Origin: Clostridiales bacterium
Lineage (GTDB): Bacteria > Bacillota > Clostridia > Christensenellales > Borkfalkiaceae
Length of the DNA: 45,606 bases
Reading direction: 5' to 3'
NCBI GenBank assembly: GCA_022781715.1
Contig: JALETB010000025.1
Location: 1 to 45,606, forward strand
Positions within the stretch are counted from its first letter, which is position 1; every line of letters starts with the position of its first letter. The position numbers were made by a program, and so were the translations under genes. The notes under the pieces are model-generated. The model saw only the letters and a list, made by a program, of their open reading frames with translations. It was not told where the DNA came from and did not search any database. This document shows positions 979 to 36,974 of the stretch, piece after piece.

Positions 979-1820
979 CGAGGAAGATGACAGGACTTGA
1001 AAAAAGCGCGAAAACCGACACCGTCGGGATGATTTTAACGCTTATTCTTTACGCCGTGGGTGCGGTTTCCGCTCCTTACGTCAAAGTTGCGGGGTGGCTC
1101 GGCGGGGGCGTCGAACTCGAATGGTATCTCGCGTTCGCGTTCAAAACGATCTGTTCCGTTCTGCCGGTATACCTGATGTTTCAGTTCGGATTCGGAAAAG
1201 CCGTAACAGGTTTCTGCGGCGGAATCAAAGGACTTTTGCTTTGCATTCCGGCGTTTCTGGTCGCACTCGACAACTTTCCTTTTCTGCCGCTTTTAAACGG
1301 AGATCTGGCGTTTAACGGTGCTATAGGCGGACTTTTCCCTTACGTTCTCTATTGCTTGTCGATAGGGATCATGGAGGAAACGATATTCCGCGGGACGATT
1401 TTTCCGCTGTTCCTGTTCAGGTTTCAACATAATAAAAAAGGAACTTTTTGGGCGATTGCGGCATCGTCCGCGATATTCGGCGCGATGCACCTTCTGAACC
1501 TCTTCGGCGGTTTTTCGCCCATGGTTTTTCTTCAGGTGGGGTATTCTTTCCTTATAGGATGCATGTGCGCCACGGCATTGCTTTTTTCGGGCAATATCGT
1601 CGTTCCGATAATAATTCACGCCCTTTTCGACGTCGGCGGCTTTCTCACCGATTCGGGGTTCTGCACGGGAACGTTATGGACAACGGGCAACGTGATTTTG
1701 ACGGCGGTTTTGTCGGTAATTTTTGCCGCCGCGATAGTTTTAGCATTTTTCAAAACCGATTTCGGTAAATTTTATGAAACTATGAATCTCTCTCGGCTAA
1801 GCCGCTCCGAAAAACAATAA
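975..1820 (+). CDS. CPBP-family intramembrane metalloprotease
   Basis: Motifs EETIFRG...R and GAMHLLN plus multiple hydrophobic segments; overlaps the upstream stop by 4 bp. Confidence 0.8.
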   Translation: MTRKMTGLEKSAKTDTVGMILTLILYAVGAVSAPYVKVAGWLGGGVELEWYLAFAFKTICSVLPVYLMFQFGFGKAVTGFCGGIKGLLLCIPAFLVALDNFPFLPLLNGDLAFNGAIGGLFPYVLYCLSIGIMEETIFRGTIFPLFLFRFQHNKKGTFWAIAASSAIFGAMHLLNLFGGFSPMVFLQVGYSFLIGCMCATALLFSGNIVVPIIIHALFDVGGFLTDSGFCTGTLWTTGNVILTAVLSVIFAAAIVLAFFKTDFGKFYETMNLSRLSRSEKQ

Positions 1821-5466: not shown

Positions 5467-6861
5467 ATGCGGAAGAGAATACTTTTAAAAGATATTTATG
5501 CGGACGTAAAGAGTTTCGGCGACAAAAAAGTTACCGTTATGGGCTGGGCGAGAACGATCAGGGATTCCAAAGCCTTCGGATTCATCGAAATCAACGACGG
5601 CAGTTGTTTCAGGAACGTTCAGGTTGTTTTCGAGCGCGAAAAAATCGATAATTACGACGAAATCGCCAGGCAGAACGTCGGCGCGTCGCTCGTCGTGGAC
5701 GGCACGCTCGTTTTAACCCCGGAAGCGAAACAGCCTTTCGAAATCAAAGCGGAAAAAATAACGGTGGAAGGAACTTCTTCGCCCGATTATCCGTTGCAGA
5801 AAAAACGTCATTCTCTCGAATATCTTCGCGAGATCGCTTATTTAAGACCGCGCACCAACACCTTCTCGGCTGTGTTCAGAATCAGGAGCGAAGCGGCTTT
5901 CGCCATTCACGAATTTTTCAACGCGAGGGGCTTCGTTTACGTTCACACGCCGCTCATCACGGGCAGCGACTGCGAGGGCGCGGGAGCGATGTTCCAGGTA
6001 ACCACTCTCGACCTTAACGACGTTCCCAAAAAGGACGGCAAGGTTGACTACGTGCAGGACTTTTTCAAAAAACAGGCGAGCCTCACCGTTTCGGGGCAAC
6101 TTTCCGCCGAGGCATACGCCATGGCGTTCGGAAACGTTTACACGTTCGGCCCCACATTCAGAGCGGAACGTTCCAACACGGCGCGCCACGCGGCTGAATT
6201 CTGGATGATAGAGCCGGAAATGGCTTTCGCCGATCTTGCGGACGATATGGACGTTGCGGAAGCGATGGTTAAGCACATTATTTCGCATGTTATGAAAACC
6301 TGCCCCGCCGAACTCGAATTTCTCAACAACTTCGTGGATAAGGGGCTTATCGACAGGCTTACGCACGTTATGACGAGCGACTTTGTGAGATTGCCTTATA
6401 CCGAAGCGATAAAGATCCTCGAGCCGGTTAAAGACAAATTCGAATATCCTGTTTTCTGGGGTTGCGACCTTCAGAGCGAACACGAGAGATATCTCACCGA
6501 GCAGGTTTATAAAAAACCCGTTTTCCTCACCGATTATCCGAAGGAAATCAAGGCTTTCTATATGCGCCTTAACGACGACGGGAAAACCGTCGCGGCGGCG
6601 GACCTTCTCGTTCCCGGCATAGGCGAACTCATCGGCGGCAGCCAGAGAGAGGAGCGCGAGGACGTACTTCTTGCCAGAATGAACGAACTCGGGCTTAACC
6701 CCGCCGATTACGACTGGTATTTGAATCTTCGCAAATACGGCGGAACGACCCACTCCGGTTTCGGGCTCGGTTTTGAAAGAATGGTTATGTATCTCACCGG
6801 CATCGCGAACATAAGAGACGTAATTCCCTTCCCGAGAACGGTAGACAATCTCGAATATTAA
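5467..6861 (+). CDS. asnS: Asparaginyl-tRNA synthetase
   Basis: N-terminal OB-fold ([25 protein letters not shown]), class II motifs ([39 protein letters not shown]). Confidence 0.95.
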
Positions 6862-13896: not shown

Positions 13897-14211
13897 ATGA
13901 AAGTCGGCGACGAAATCTATTATAACGAACTTTTCGCCGAGTACTGTGAACTTTTAAGCCCGGCGCAGAAAGAGATATTCGATTTATATTCGGGTATGGA
14001 TCTTTCTTTGGGCGAGATTGCGGAGATAAAAGGCATATCCCGCCAGAGCGTGTCGGACGCGGTTACCAAAGCGAAAAAACAACTTGTTTCGTTTGAGGAA
14101 AAATTGAGGCTATGTTCTAAGAAAAAGTCGATTTATCGACTTATAGAGGGGCTTAGCAAGGAAAATGAACCGATAAAAAAAGAGATTGAAAAAATTTTGG
14201 GAGATAACTGA
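13897..14211 (+). CDS. ylxM: YlxM/p13-like DNA-binding protein, ffh-associated
   Basis: YNELFAEYCELLSPAQKEIFDLYSGMDLSLGEIAEIKGISRQSVSDAVTKA HTH; directly upstream of ffh. Start set at ATG 13897. Confidence 0.88.
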   Translation: MKVGDEIYYNELFAEYCELLSPAQKEIFDLYSGMDLSLGEIAEIKGISRQSVSDAVTKAKKQLVSFEEKLRLCSKKKSIYRLIEGLSKENEPIKKEIEKILGDN

Positions 14212-17531: not shown

Positions 17532-18425
17532 ATGGAAAACAACGAAAGAAAGATAAACTGGTTTCCGGGACATATGGCGAAGGCTTTGCGGCAGATGGAA
17601 GCCGACGCGAAGTTGTGCGACGGTGTTATTCTCGTAATGGACGCGCGCGCGGTTTTCGCGTGTTTCAACAAACGGCTCGATAAGATTTTCGGCAACAAAC
17701 CTGTTGTTTACTGTATCAATAAAAGAGATCTTATCTCCACGGCTCAGGCTAAAAAAATCGAGAGTTATTTTAAACAAAACAACCTCGTTTATGAACTTAT
17801 AGACGGACTTTCCAAGCGTGATGGGCAGAATTTGCGCGCTAAATGCGACATCGCTCTGAAAGAAAAAATCGAGCGGAACGCCGCCAAGGGCGTGACCAGA
17901 ACGTTGCGTTTTATGGTCGCGGGATTGCCGAACACGGGTAAGTCTACAATTATAAATACGATAAGCGGCTCCAAGAAAGCGGAAACGGGCAACAAGGCGG
18001 GAATCACGCGGAGCAACAAATGGATAAGACTCGGTAATTTCGACCTTCTCGACACGCCCGGAACGATGCCGCCGAACATCGAAAATCAGATCTACGCAAG
18101 GCATCTCGCCTACATCGGCGCGATAAACGACGATATTCTTCATACGGAGGACCTCGCGCTCGAACTTATTAAGGAACTCGCGAAGATTGCTCCGAAGGAA
18201 TTTAAAGAGAAATACAAACTCGATTCGCTTGACAAAGAGCCGCTCGCGCTGTTCGACGAGATTTGCAAAAAACGTGGATATCTTCTCCGAGGCGGAGAGA
18301 GCGATTACGAGCGCGCGGCAAAAGCAATCATCGACGATTTTCGCAAGGGCAGAATAGGTAAAATTGCGCTCGAAACCGAGCCTGTCGGGAATCAGGTAAA
18401 GCCCGCCGAAAAGGAAAATAACTGA
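17532..18425 (+). CDS. rbgA: Ribosome biogenesis GTPase RbgA/YlqF
   Basis: INWFPGHMAKALRQM; circularly permuted GTPase with NKRDL before GLPNTGKSTIIN. Confidence 0.95.
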   Translation: MENNERKINWFPGHMAKALRQMEADAKLCDGVILVMDARAVFACFNKRLDKIFGNKPVVYCINKRDLISTAQAKKIESYFKQNNLVYELIDGLSKRDGQNLRAKCDIALKEKIERNAAKGVTRTLRFMVAGLPNTGKSTIINTISGSKKAETGNKAGITRSNKWIRLGNFDLLDTPGTMPPNIENQIYARHLAYIGAINDDILHTEDLALELIKELAKIAPKEFKEKYKLDSLDKEPLALFDEICKKRGYLLRGGESDYERAAKAIIDDFRKGRIGKIALETEPVGNQVKPAEKENN

Positions 18426-19061: not shown

Positions 19062-19363
19062 CCGCCGGCGAAATCAAGAAGTCGGGCTATAGGCTCGTTA
19101 AACGCAATTTTGTCACTCCTTACGGCGAGGCTGATCTCATCTTTGAAAAGGGCGACGAGATTGTTTTCGTCGAGGTTAAAACCCGCAGCAACGAGATTTT
19201 CGGCACGCCGCGCGAGGCGGTGGGTTATAAAAAACAGGAGAAGTACAGGAACATCGCGGAGTATTATTTTGCGGATAAAGGCGGTTCGGACGGAAAGAAC
19301 GTGAGTTTTGCCGTCGCGGAAGTTACACCCGCGGGAGTCAGGGTGATTTACAACGCTTTCTGA
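19001..19363 (+). CDS. yraN: YraN/UPF0102 family nuclease-like protein
   Basis: LLGRRGEKLAAGEIKKSGYRLVKRNFVTPYGEADLIFEKGDEIVFVEVKTR. Confidence 0.88.
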   Translation: MPDSQKDFHKKLLGRRGEKLAAGEIKKSGYRLVKRNFVTPYGEADLIFEKGDEIVFVEVKTRSNEIFGTPREAVGYKKQEKYRNIAEYYFADKGGSDGKNVSFAVAEVTPAGVRVIYNAF

Positions 19364-19494: not shown

Positions 19495-20572
19495 GATCAC
19501 GGGCGTAAAAGATCTTTCTGCCGTCGACGGCAGAATATGTTTTGAGGGCGACGAGGAAACTCTGGCGAAGTGCAATCTGTTTTTGCGGACGGCGAACCGT
19601 GTTGAGATAATCGTCGGCAGGTTCAAAGCGGAAACTTTCGACGACCTTTTCGACGGGATAAGGAACATCGAATGGGAAAAGTATATCGATAAAGACGGAG
19701 AGATAATCGTTTCGGCGAAGAGCGTTATGAGCAAATTATTCGCTTATTCCGCCATTCAGTCGATAACCAAAAAAGCAGTGTGCGAGCGGCTTAAGTCCGC
19801 CTATAAGTCGATTAACTTAGCAGAAAGCGGTGCAAGACACAAAATCGAAGCGGCGATAAGAAAGGATTTCGTGACCGTTTCGCTCGACACATCGGGCGAA
19901 GGACTTCACAGGCGCGGATACCGCGGGCTTGTGGGCGAAGCACCTTTGAAAGAAACGCTTGCTTCCGCGCTTATTCAACTCTCCGTGTGGGAGCCTTCGA
20001 GACCGTTCGCGGATATTTTTTGCGGCACGGGAACGATTCCGGTCGAGGCTGCGCTCATTGCGGCGAACATCCCGAGCGGAATGAACAGAGATTTCGATTA
20101 CCTTCACTGGAAGGGAACAAACAGAACGATTTTCGACAAGATTAAGGAAAAAGCCGCGTCCGAAATAAACACGGACAGAGAAGTTCGCATAAGCGGCTTC
20201 GATATAGACGAAAAGCAACTCAAACTCGCGAGAAAGCACGCCGAAATCGCGGGGGTTAAGGATATGATTCACTTCCAGCGGGCGGACATGCGCGGTTTTT
20301 CCTCTCGGTTTTCCCACGGGGTGATTATTTCCAATCCGCCCTACGGCGAAAGACTTTCCGAAAGGCGAGAGATCGAAAAACTTTACAGAGATTATGGAAA
20401 AATCGTTAAAAATCTCGACGAATGGTGTTGCTACACGCTTACTTCCGTAGACGATTTCGAACGGCTCTTCGGCAGAAAAGCCGATAAAAAACGCAAGATT
20501 TACAACGGAAAACTCGAATGTAACTTCTATTCGATGCTCGCCGCGCCGCCGAAAAAAGCAACCTCCCGTTGA
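19433..20572 (+). CDS. THUMP-domain class I SAM rRNA methyltransferase (RlmL/YpsC-like)
   Basis: THUMP region plus FADIFCGTGTIPVEAALIA and SNPPYGERL. Confidence 0.9.
   Translation: MEICVTSASGIEAVTKRELYKITGVKDLSAVDGRICFEGDEETLAKCNLFLRTANRVEIIVGRFKAETFDDLFDGIRNIEWEKYIDKDGEIIVSAKSVMSKLFAYSAIQSITKKAVCERLKSAYKSINLAESGARHKIEAAIRKDFVTVSLDTSGEGLHRRGYRGLVGEAPLKETLASALIQLSVWEPSRPFADIFCGTGTIPVEAALIAANIPSGMNRDFDYLHWKGTNRTIFDKIKEKAASEINTDREVRISGFDIDEKQLKLARKHAEIAGVKDMIHFQRADMRGFSSRFSHGVIISNPPYGERLSERREIEKLYRDYGKIVKNLDEWCCYTLTSVDDFERLFGRKADKKRKIYNGKLECNFYSMLAAPPKKATSR
19802..19815 (+). repeat. 14-bp motif tataagtcgattaa, copy in the rlmL-like gene
   Basis: Exact match to 26266-26279, 33779-33792 and 34111-34124. 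Confidence 0.8.
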
Positions 20573-25324: not shown

Positions 25325-26415
25325 CGGAACTTACGGGAATCGAAAAGGCGATAGTTTTTCTCGATTCGACGGAAGGACTCGAATATAAATACAAGAAAAC
25401 GATTATCGATAATTTTAAAGGCGATTTGTTCAAGGACAAAGCAAGGCTTCTGAAGTTTTTCGAGGATCGCGGCGAGCGAGTGCTGGGCAAGTCCTTAGCG
25501 GAAATGCTCGGCGACGAGAGTTATGTGGAAAAACGCGTGGCGGAGGCGACTTCGGGGGCGGACGACGTTATAACTATCGCGTCCGTCGGCGAAAAGGGAA
25601 GTTATTATCCCGAACCGCTCAGGGAAACGCCCGTTCCGCCTCTCGCGCTTTACGTCAAAGGCAACAAGGAACTGCTGAAAGAGAAACATAAAATTTCTAT
25701 AGTAGGCTCGCGAAAAACTTTGCCGCAATATCTATCCGCAACGGAAAAGATTGCCCGCGAACTGAGCGAAAACGGCGCGGTGGTCGTCACCGGGATTGCC
25801 GACGGAGCGGACAGCGCGGCGATAAAAGGCGCTCTTCCTTCCGGCAGGATAATTTCGGTTCAGGCGAGCGGGATTTATCCCGTCGTGCCGGCGAGCAAAC
25901 AGAACTTAGCGAACGAAATCGCGAAGAACGGACTTCTGATAAGCGAAAACCCGAAAGGATACGTGCCGAGGTCGTTCTCTTATCCGGTGAGAAACAGAAT
26001 AATCGCGGCTTTGTCGCCGGTAACCTTGATCGCAAGCGGCAACGCGAAGAGCGGAGCAAAATACACCGCCGATTACGCCGCGGACTACGGGAGGGAAATC
26101 GCTTGTTTTCCCTACGGACTCGGCGTCGCTTCGGGCGAACTTTGCAAGAGCCTCATTAAGAGCGGCGCGGCTATGACAGAAAGTGCAAAAGAGGCGGCTT
26201 TCCTGATGGGGATGACCTTTGAAAAGAAATCCGAAATTCAACTGAACGAAGTTGAAAAAGCCGTTTATAAGTCGATTAAATCAGGAATTAACTCAACAGA
26301 CGCGCTCGCTTTGAAACTCGGTTTCAAGATATACGAACTGCTTACGATAACCGTTTCGCTCGAAATGAAAGGGCTGATCGTTAAAGGTCCGGACGGCAGA
26401 TTCGAAGCGAATTAA
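25321..26415 (+). CDS. dprA: DprA/Smf-family protein, divergent
   Basis: IVGSRKTLPQY, VVVTGIADGADSAAIKGAL, YPVRNRIIAALSP, winged-helix-like C-terminus; between comM and topA. Confidence 0.85.
   Translation: MTELTGIEKAIVFLDSTEGLEYKYKKTIIDNFKGDLFKDKARLLKFFEDRGERVLGKSLAEMLGDESYVEKRVAEATSGADDVITIASVGEKGSYYPEPLRETPVPPLALYVKGNKELLKEKHKISIVGSRKTLPQYLSATEKIARELSENGAVVVTGIADGADSAAIKGALPSGRIISVQASGIYPVVPASKQNLANEIAKNGLLISENPKGYVPRSFSYPVRNRIIAALSPVTLIASGNAKSGAKYTADYAADYGREIACFPYGLGVASGELCKSLIKSGAAMTESAKEAAFLMGMTFEKKSEIQLNEVEKAVYKSIKSGINSTDALALKLGFKIYELLTITVSLEMKGLIVKGPDGRFEAN
26266..26279 (+). repeat. 14-bp motif tataagtcgattaa, copy in dprA
   Basis: Exact match to the other copies listed. Confidence 0.8.
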
Positions 26416-33325: not shown

Positions 33326-33451
33326 ATGACCGAGGTCTTTAAAAAAAGACGAAAAGAAGTCTTTTTTAAGGGAAAACGAAGTCTTGTAAAAAAGACGAAT
33401 CACTATGGAGGAAATTATTATGGAAGAAAAGATAATAAACGTTCTGGATGA
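33326..33451 (+). CDS. Possible Lys/Arg-rich leader ORF (41 codons) overlapping the thioredoxin start
   Basis: ATG 33326 with upstream aggaattgca: MTEVFKKRRKEVFFKGKRSLVKKTNHYGGNYYGRKDNKRSG*; stop at 33449-33451. Confidence 0.35.
   Translation: MTEVFKKRRKEVFFKGKRSLVKKTNHYGGNYYGRKDNKRSG
33335..33396 (+). promoter_or_regulatory. Alternative hairpin-forming region between hisS and the thioredoxin gene
   Basis: gtcttt/aaagac (33335-33350), aaaaaagac/gtctttttt (33342-33367) and gtctt/aagac (33381-33396). The first two share sequence and are mutually exclusive. Confidence 0.55.
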
Positions 33452-33775: not shown

Positions 33776-33792
33776 GGCTATAAGTCGATTAA
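33776..33792 (+). repeat. 17-bp direct repeat, left copy
   Basis: ggctataagtcgattaa, identical to 34108-34124. Confidence 0.85.
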
Positions 33793-33821
33793 CGGCATGA
33801 AAACTTAACAATTAACTAGTG

Positions 33822-33860
33822 GCGCCGGGGCGGAATGAAATTCCGCCCCGGCGCAATTTT
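33822..33860 (+). terminator. Perfect 15-bp-stem hairpin, probable terminator after the thioredoxin gene
   Basis: gcgccggggcggaat-gaa-attccgccccggcgc then aatttt. Confidence 0.7.
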
Positions 33861-33862
33861 GA

Positions 33863-34048
33863 ACTTATGAACAAAGAAAATTAAATAACGTAACGCAAAG
33901 ACAAATGGCAGAGTATTTAAAAATTGCTCAGCCGTCTTATATTCGATATGAAAACGGGACTGCCGAACCCAGCCTGGAAAATCTTGTTAAAATCGCAGAT
34001 TTTTTTGATGTTTCAACAGACTATCTATTAGGAAGAGAGGAATTTTGA
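33863..34048 (+). pseudogene. 5'-truncated XRE/Cro-CI HTH regulator remnant
   Basis: Open frame ...QRKLNNVTQRQMAEYLKIAQPSYIRYENGTAEPSLENLVKIADFFDVSTDYLLGREEF*. The first HTH helix and any normal start are missing; the frame is closed by a stop at 33860-33862. Confidence 0.7.
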
Positions 34049-34107
34049 TAAGAATAATATCAATAGCATCTTATTTTGGAATATGTTGAAATAAATCGTA
34101 GTAATGT

Positions 34108-34124
34108 GGCTATAAGTCGATTAA
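34108..34124 (+). repeat. 17-bp direct repeat, right copy
   Basis: ggctataagtcgattaa, identical to 33776-33792. Confidence 0.85.
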
Positions 34125-34154
34125 ATACGTAATTTTATTATTTATATATAAAAT

Positions 34155-34190
34155 AAAACAGGCGGAAACCGTGAGGTTTCCGCCTGTTTT
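34155..34190. terminator. Bidirectional terminator, 16-bp perfect stem
   Basis: aaaacaggcggaaacc-gtga-ggtttccgcctgtttt; T-rich on both strands. Confidence 0.85.
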
Positions 34191-34216
34191 GTCGATAAGG
34201 TACAGAGGGGTAAGAC

Positions 34217-35837: not shown

Positions 35838-36974
35838 TCAATCTTCTTTTTTCGTCAGACAATAAGCCTGAACGGCAATTCCTTCCTCTCTGCCGACGAT
35901 GCCTATGCCCTCCAAAGTGGTGCAGGTTATGCCCACGGCGGAATCTTCAAGCCCGAGATTTTTGGCGAGACTTGACCTTATCGTATCCACGTATTTTGAG
36001 AGTTTCGGTTTTTGTGCTTGGATCACCGCAGACACGTTAATCGGCTTATAGCCCGACTTATTGAGCAAGTCAAGAACATTTTGCAACAATAAAATGCTCG
36101 AAATGCCCTTGTATTTATCGTCGGTGTCGGGGAAGTATCTGCCGATGTCGCCGAGACTTGCAGAGGAGAGCAGTGCGTCCATAATCGCGTGGGTTAAAAC
36201 GTCCGCGTCGCTGTGACCTAAAAGTCCTTTGTCGTGCGGAATTTCCACGCCGCCTAAAATAAGTTTTCTGTTCTCGACGAGAAGATGCAGGTCAAACCCT
36301 GTGCCGACGAAAAGCCTGCCGTTGCCGCCGATTGAAAAATCTTCGGCATAAGTGAGTTTTTTGTTTGCGTTTTCGCCCCGAGCGATATGACATTTGCCGA
36401 TATATTTTGCAAAAACGCCCGATTCGTCGGTAAAAACTTCGTCGTCCGAAGCAAGCGAGAATGCTTTTCTGATCAGTTCGGTTTTAAACCCTTGCGGGGT
36501 CTGAACAGCGTATTTGCCGTCTCTCGAAGAAGAAACAAGAACTTTTTCTCCGTTTTCTTCCTTCACTTCACCTATCGTGTCAGTGAGAGGGACCGCGGTT
36601 ATCGCCGAACCAAACTTTGTCGCGGTTTTCACGCAGTCGCAAATAATGCGTCTCGATACGAACGGACGCGCCCCGTCGTGAATGAGAACAATGTCGCCGG
36701 ACACGGCTTCAAGACCGTTTTTAACCGACTTGCCTCTTGTTGTCGATCCCGTCACAAAAACGGCGTTAATCGACCTATCGAGGCACTTTTTTCTGAAAAT
36801 CTCTTCATCTTGCTTTGTGCAGACAACAATTATTTCGTCGATAACGCCCGAATCCGCAAACGCGCAGACAGTCTTTTCAAAAGGCGTAATTCCGCCGATA
36901 TCTTTCAGAAGTTTATTAAAACCGAACCCGGCTCTTTCGCCCGAACCGGCGCACGTTATAATCGCGCTTACCAT
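35838..36974 (-). CDS. ispDF: Bifunctional IspD/IspF (MEP pathway fusion)
   Basis: N-terminal IspD (SAIITCAGSGERAGFGFNKLL, VLIHDGARPFVS), C-terminal IspF (VGTGFDLHLL, GGVEIPHDKGLLGHSDADVLTHAIMDALL). Confidence 0.94.
   Translation of the reverse strand: MVSAIITCAGSGERAGFGFNKLLKDIGGITPFEKTVCAFADSGVIDEIIVVCTKQDEEIFRKKCLDRSINAVFVTGSTTRGKSVKNGLEAVSGDIVLIHDGARPFVSRRIICDCVKTATKFGSAITAVPLTDTIGEVKEENGEKVLVSSSRDGKYAVQTPQGFKTELIRKAFSLASDDEVFTDESGVFAKYIGKCHIARGENANKKLTYAEDFSIGGNGRLFVGTGFDLHLLVENRKLILGGVEIPHDKGLLGHSDADVLTHAIMDALLSSASLGDIGRYFPDTDDKYKGISSILLLQNVLDLLNKSGYKPINVSAVIQAQKPKLSKYVDTIRSSLAKNLGLEDSAVGITCTTLEGIGIVGREEGIAVQAYCLTKKED

Follow-up and report, generated by a model that had tools for sequence, protein, structure and literature searches.

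A dispersed, helically phased chromosomal motif, candidate site of an HU/IHF-like protein, accounts for paired 17-bp repeats beside a dead XRE gene in Borkfalkiaceae

Why would two identical 17-bp direct repeats lie on either side of a piece of regulator gene, in the middle of an AT-rich patch between the thioredoxin gene (trx) and radA? This is the question raised by one locus in the 45,606-nt stretch of Clostridiales DNA that we analyzed (the window). The initial annotation took the patch for the scar of an accessory element, inserted or deleted between the repeats, with a decayed regulator left inside. Much of that description holds. Both repeats are exact copies of GGCTATAAGTCGATTAA, on the same strand and 332 bp apart (Table 1), and GC content drops to 21-41% in 100-bp windows across positions 33850-34200, versus 48% in the sampled genome. 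A search for Rfam RNA elements at the locus gave no match. Four congeners retain hisS-trx, but other DNA follows trx in them and the trx-radA junction is not kept. Just upstream of trx (window 33331-33399), we also noticed an imperfect 23-bp direct repeat, cgaggtctttaaaaaaagacgaa, with copies 46 bp apart.

We found that the regulator piece is of XRE type, as had been proposed, since a profile search against Pfam HTH_3 gives a match of 1.5e-14 that covers profile positions 11-55 of 55. It had also been described as lacking both a start and helix 1; there is indeed no start upstream of Met33905, but a bit more of the helix is kept (EQRKLNN) than was thought. The frame opens immediately after the terminator-like hairpin of trx, and the window copy begins at YEQRKLNN. 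Intact homologs of 68-82 codons, 70-78% identical to it, exist in several genera (G009, G052, G015, G022, G044, G050, and G014). They have about 10 extra N-terminal codons, the N terminus being mostly MKIFQERL-.EQRKLN, and their own upstream region rich in GCTATA, while the window copy has neither. Because the window copy lacks a start and the GCTATA-rich upstream region, it is a 5'-truncated and probably dead gene, in line with the decayed regulator that had been suspected. As a separate observation, most of these small XRE genes (MKIFQERLxEQRKLN..., L373-L379) are preceded by many GCTATA/TATAGC half-sites in their upstream region, and the genes are possibly a mobile or self-regulated unit.

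The repeats themselves have a different explanation. The exact 17-mer is present in 12 copies in the 1.67-Mb genome, and in 200 when up to three mismatches are allowed (8 for a reversed control). In 376 kb of this genome, no 12-mer is more over-represented than ATAAGTCGATTA, with 40 copies versus 0.17 expected. With a weight matrix of 80 bp and 37.6 bits (core 21.8, flanks 15.8), we detected 139 sites of at least 16 bits in 577 kb, versus 1 with the reversed matrix, or about 400 sites per genome. The window contains 11 sites of at least 14 bits (Table 1). The two 17-bp repeats are thus two of about 400 copies of a dispersed chromosomal motif, and the XRE remnant between them is a dead gene unrelated to them. 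A scar would account for a truncated XRE gene in AT-rich DNA with identical 17-mers on either side. However, the same 17-mer occurs ten more times exactly and hundreds of times approximately, copies lie within coding sequence free of indels and also in species that do not have the patch, and about 7 site pairs within 350 bp are expected per genome from motif density. Such a repeat pair is therefore not unique to insertion boundaries, as target-site duplications would be, and with repeats that are ubiquitous and unrelated to the patch we reject the scar reading as highly improbable. One contig end (G000:C25, L113:9026-10089) shows an inverted duplication with two motif copies on each arm, which is probably an assembly artifact.

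Table 1. Features between trx and radA, and motif copies throughout the window
Feature	Position	Core	Strand	Score (bits)
Motif copy 1 (left 17-mer)	33776..33792	33778-33791	+	41.9
Motif copy 2 (right 17-mer)	34108..34124	34110-34123	+	37.3
XRE/HTH_3 remnant, 5'-truncated by ~10 codons; open frame lacking start and promoter	33863..34048		+	
Terminator-like hairpin of trx, abutted by XRE remnant	33822..33854		+	
Terminator-like hairpin, radA side	34155..34190		.	
Motif copy in ispDF coding sequence	36767..36780		-	39.4
Motif copy in ispDF coding sequence	36038..36051		-	28.0
Motif copy in coding sequence	26265..26278		+	39.4
Motif copy in RlmL-like methyltransferase gene	19801..19814		+	34.6
Motif copy	17789..17802		-	34.1
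Motif copy	14133..14146		-	39.1
Weaker motif copy	6339..6352		-	18.7
Weak motif copy	19087..19100		+	15.8
Weak motif copy	1313..1326		-	14.2

The motif has an elaborate anatomy. Its consensus is AAAAgtccG-n-CTATAAGTCGATTA-wC-n5-TTTT plus further A/T peaks, the core being flanked by A/T tracts with a 10.4-bp spacing over about 75 bp. In 301 sites picked by core alone, these peaks fall at approximately -27, -17, -7.5, +4, +13, +23.5, +34.5, and +45.5, and the same 10.4-bp period is measured in the flanks alone in G000, G002, and G007. The A/T pattern has its center of pseudosymmetry at +8 to +9.5, on the central TCGA. The core contains two TpA steps, 4/5 and 13/14, with a spacing of 9 bp, and an A-tract and a T-tract lie about 15-16 bp to either side.

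We then considered where the sites lie. They are evenly split between strands, both genome-wide (99 vs. 101) and within the coding sequences of G000 (17 sense, 20 antisense). With gene direction standing in for that of replication, strand bias is thus lacking, and we rejected polar sites of the Chi/KOPS kind. Using a home-made gene caller in G000, site density is about 6.6-fold higher outside genes, and convergent intergenic regions have about 4.5-fold more sites per kb than tandem ones. In four species, the spacing of sites is overdispersed (10 observed vs. 35 expected at 50-400 bp), with the exception of 11 pairs spaced by only 8-12 bp, among which nine are inverted hairpins. For sites in genes, 65 of 74 orthologue comparisons show no gap near the site; these copies are not insertions and arise by substitution. 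Between motif-rich species, sites are conserved at the same codons in 21/46 comparisons (reciprocal pairs counted twice), and in 10/24 at 35-50% protein identity, while 6-22% of other 14-mers in those alignments are kept. The genes that carry sites are unrelated housekeeping genes, and this, together with the location at convergent 3' ends rather than promoters, led us to reject a regulon or operator. A mobile repeat was rejected because the flanks past the phased tracts are not conserved, and a phage-borne motif because 77 IMG/VR contigs each have one exact 14-mer and none has repeated copies.

How widespread is the motif? In 121 genomes, exact ATAAGTCGATTA is found 2-130 times per genome in g1, 17-70 times in g29, and 8-75 times in g32, versus 0-2 times outside these three. 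Members of g1 are diverged, with thioredoxins 44-74% identical to that of the window. Using the g1 matrix, we found dialects with the same layout and another central 4-mer (regex counts include overlapping matches): CCCG in part of g32, TTAA/TTTA in g31, and GCGN in g8, where the variant in G021 is CTATAAGGCGATTA. The top k-mers of G021 were considered as a dialect and rejected, being leucine-rich-repeat and other local repeats; its top 12-mers come from tandem leucine-rich-repeat-like repeats about 69 bp apart (G021:C13, L148:15261-16239). Genera with canonical HU or without HU showed 0 sites in 147 kb.

The 9-bp spacing of the TpA steps and the flanking A-tracts suggested the DNABII family as candidate binder. 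A PF00216 search, which tested this one guessed family and was not an unbiased scan, revealed in motif-rich genomes a distinct DNABII subfamily with GEYVHISGFATF (FATF-type), whose members are 67-79% identical in alignment to the 91-residue protein of G000 (C11:2032-2301). Motif-free genera have a canonical HU with GFG[ST]F or no DNABII, and three g32 genomes carry both types. The FATF-type protein was found in 20/22 motif-rich versus 16/99 other genomes (Fisher P ~3e-11, not corrected for phylogeny), an association that is confounded by phylogeny. All 16 motif-poor carriers belong to g8, g31, and g33; g8 (G021) and g31 combine the protein with variant motifs, and g33 is a real exception, with the protein present and no site in 20 kb (about 5 expected). 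The gene was not detected in G001, which has the most motif copies, or in G014, genomes that are 83% and 80% complete. Outside g1, genomes without a FATF-type protein never have more than one exact motif copy. As a side observation, most genomes in g9, g11, and most of g7 and g10 have no DNABII/HU protein, although several are 97-99% complete, which is unusual for bacteria.

By sequence and model, the FATF-type protein clearly belongs to the DNABII family. Its PDB matches are HU/IHF, the closest solved homologs being HU (40-44% identity), and its AlphaFold2 model (pLDDT 95) retrieves HU-DNA and IHF as top Foldseek matches. N62 and P63, the NP at the tip of the beta-arm, are invariant. With curated NCBIfam models, an IHF identity finds no support, the scores being far below IHF cut-offs (65.7 vs. 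111 for IHF-alpha). In viral contigs, no FATF protein was found above 40% identity.

Our best guess, from correlation and geometry and with roughly even chances of being right, is that the FATF-type protein binds the motif; the evidence is as evenly balanced for seeing in the ~400 chromosomal copies candidate sites of a sequence-specific HU/IHF-like nucleoid protein of this type. IHF introduces two kinks into DNA, spaced by 9 bp within a 35-bp stretch, and binds with higher affinity next to an A-tract (PMC8421141). A DNABII protein fits the anatomy of our sites, with their pseudodyad, 9-bp spacing of TpA steps, and A-tracts located ~15 bp outward. A FATF-type dimer would be centered on the pseudodyad, at the central 4 bp; it would kink both TpA steps (T4pA5 and T13pA14 of CTATAAGTCGATTA) and clamp the two tracts on either side, A and T, while the further phased A/T tracts would favor wrapping of about 75 bp. 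One site per ~3-4 kb, preferentially at 3' ends between convergent genes, might then provide fixed bends or topological anchors. Against this reading, ~13 bits would suffice to address 400 sites, far less than 37.6 bits, a specificity beyond that of known HU or IHF. The match to the IHF consensus WATCARNNNNTTR is also only partial and varies across dialects: in the g1 dialect, 7/9 positions agree (reverse strand) and the A-tract is present, but the strict consensus, which we discarded as a description of the motif, does not hold for the dialects with CCCG or TTAA.

The proposed system would share with IHF (himA/himD) the DNABII fold, a pseudodyad with possible kink steps 9 bp apart, a flanking A-tract, and site specificity (predicted for the FATF type), but the FATF type is a single gene in most genomes and the core is not WATCARNNNNTTR across dialects. 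IHF has been reported as essentially restricted to Proteobacteria (PMC5683647). Unlike the FATF subfamily, which has GFATF instead of GFG[ST]F and for which specificity is proposed, HU of the HBsu type binds without sequence specificity. DNABII proteins with a site preference are known outside Proteobacteria, such as Borrelia Hbb and TF1 of phage SPO1, but these have few sites, in contrast to the hundreds of chromosomal copies with dialects seen here.

Two other readings deserve to be weighed against FATF-type binding. The motif statistics closely match published descriptions of DNA-uptake sequences (PMC1626085, PMC2397512, and PMC7811141), self-DNA marks spread by uptake bias and recombination. 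Like the USS of Pasteurellaceae and the DUS of Neisseriaceae, the motif has hundreds of dispersed copies on both strands that arise by substitution, not insertion, inverted pairs forming hairpins at 3' ends, overdispersed spacing, positional conservation, excess information, and lineage dialects, and it shares with USS A/T tracts one helical turn apart. It differs from both by its longer, symmetric flanks, higher information, and a 3-4-fold lower density. Competence pilus and ComEA were not found in this clade: none of the 26 relatives tested, whether motif-rich or not, has ComGB/PilC or true ComGA/PilB, and no match to ComEA exceeds the cut-off in 29 genomes. ComEC alone is present, independently of the motif and thus also in motif-free genera. 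A differential gene-content screen for a receptor, with samples that are too small, returned housekeeping genes. The sole pseudopilus operon (prepilins, prepilin peptidase, PilC, and PilB; L346:1-9196) is on contig C113 of G000, which has no motif site; found in 0/26 relatives and on a contig without sites, it may be acquired or on a contaminant contig. We therefore consider an uptake sequence to be rather unlikely, despite the resemblance.

Another protein wrapping or organizing the chromosome could produce helical phasing over ~75 bp, a pseudodyad with variable central 4 bp, and more sites than expected between convergent genes, the places in which positive supercoils accumulate. It might be DNA gyrase at preferred sites, a factor resembling Noc or MatP, or some unknown protein of the nucleoid. 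Gyrase, however, is universal whereas the motif is clade-limited, and known gyrase sites are far less specific than this core; the FATF-type DNABII is the sole candidate factor found, and we judge such an organizer to be unlikely. Going further with the FATF reading, it is conceivable, though we would bet against it, that in these bacteria the main HU-type protein has become an IHF-like architect that recognizes specific sequence. Its ~400 anchors of 75 bp per chromosome would be conserved in position and written in lineage-specific dialects of the central 4 bp that coevolve with the protein, a chromosome-wide address system resembling uptake sequences, without competence.

Taken together, these findings show that the dead XRE gene at this locus is ordinary, while the motif is real and unusual. 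Two families of Gram-negative bacteria, both competent, are known to carry dispersed motifs of this sort. A motif with the same statistics in Clostridia without a competence pilus would mean that such motifs may arise without DNA uptake, via a nucleoid protein, or else that there is an unknown route of uptake. If the FATF-type protein does bind these sites, sequence-specific and chromosome-wide binding by an HU-like protein is predicted outside Proteobacteria.
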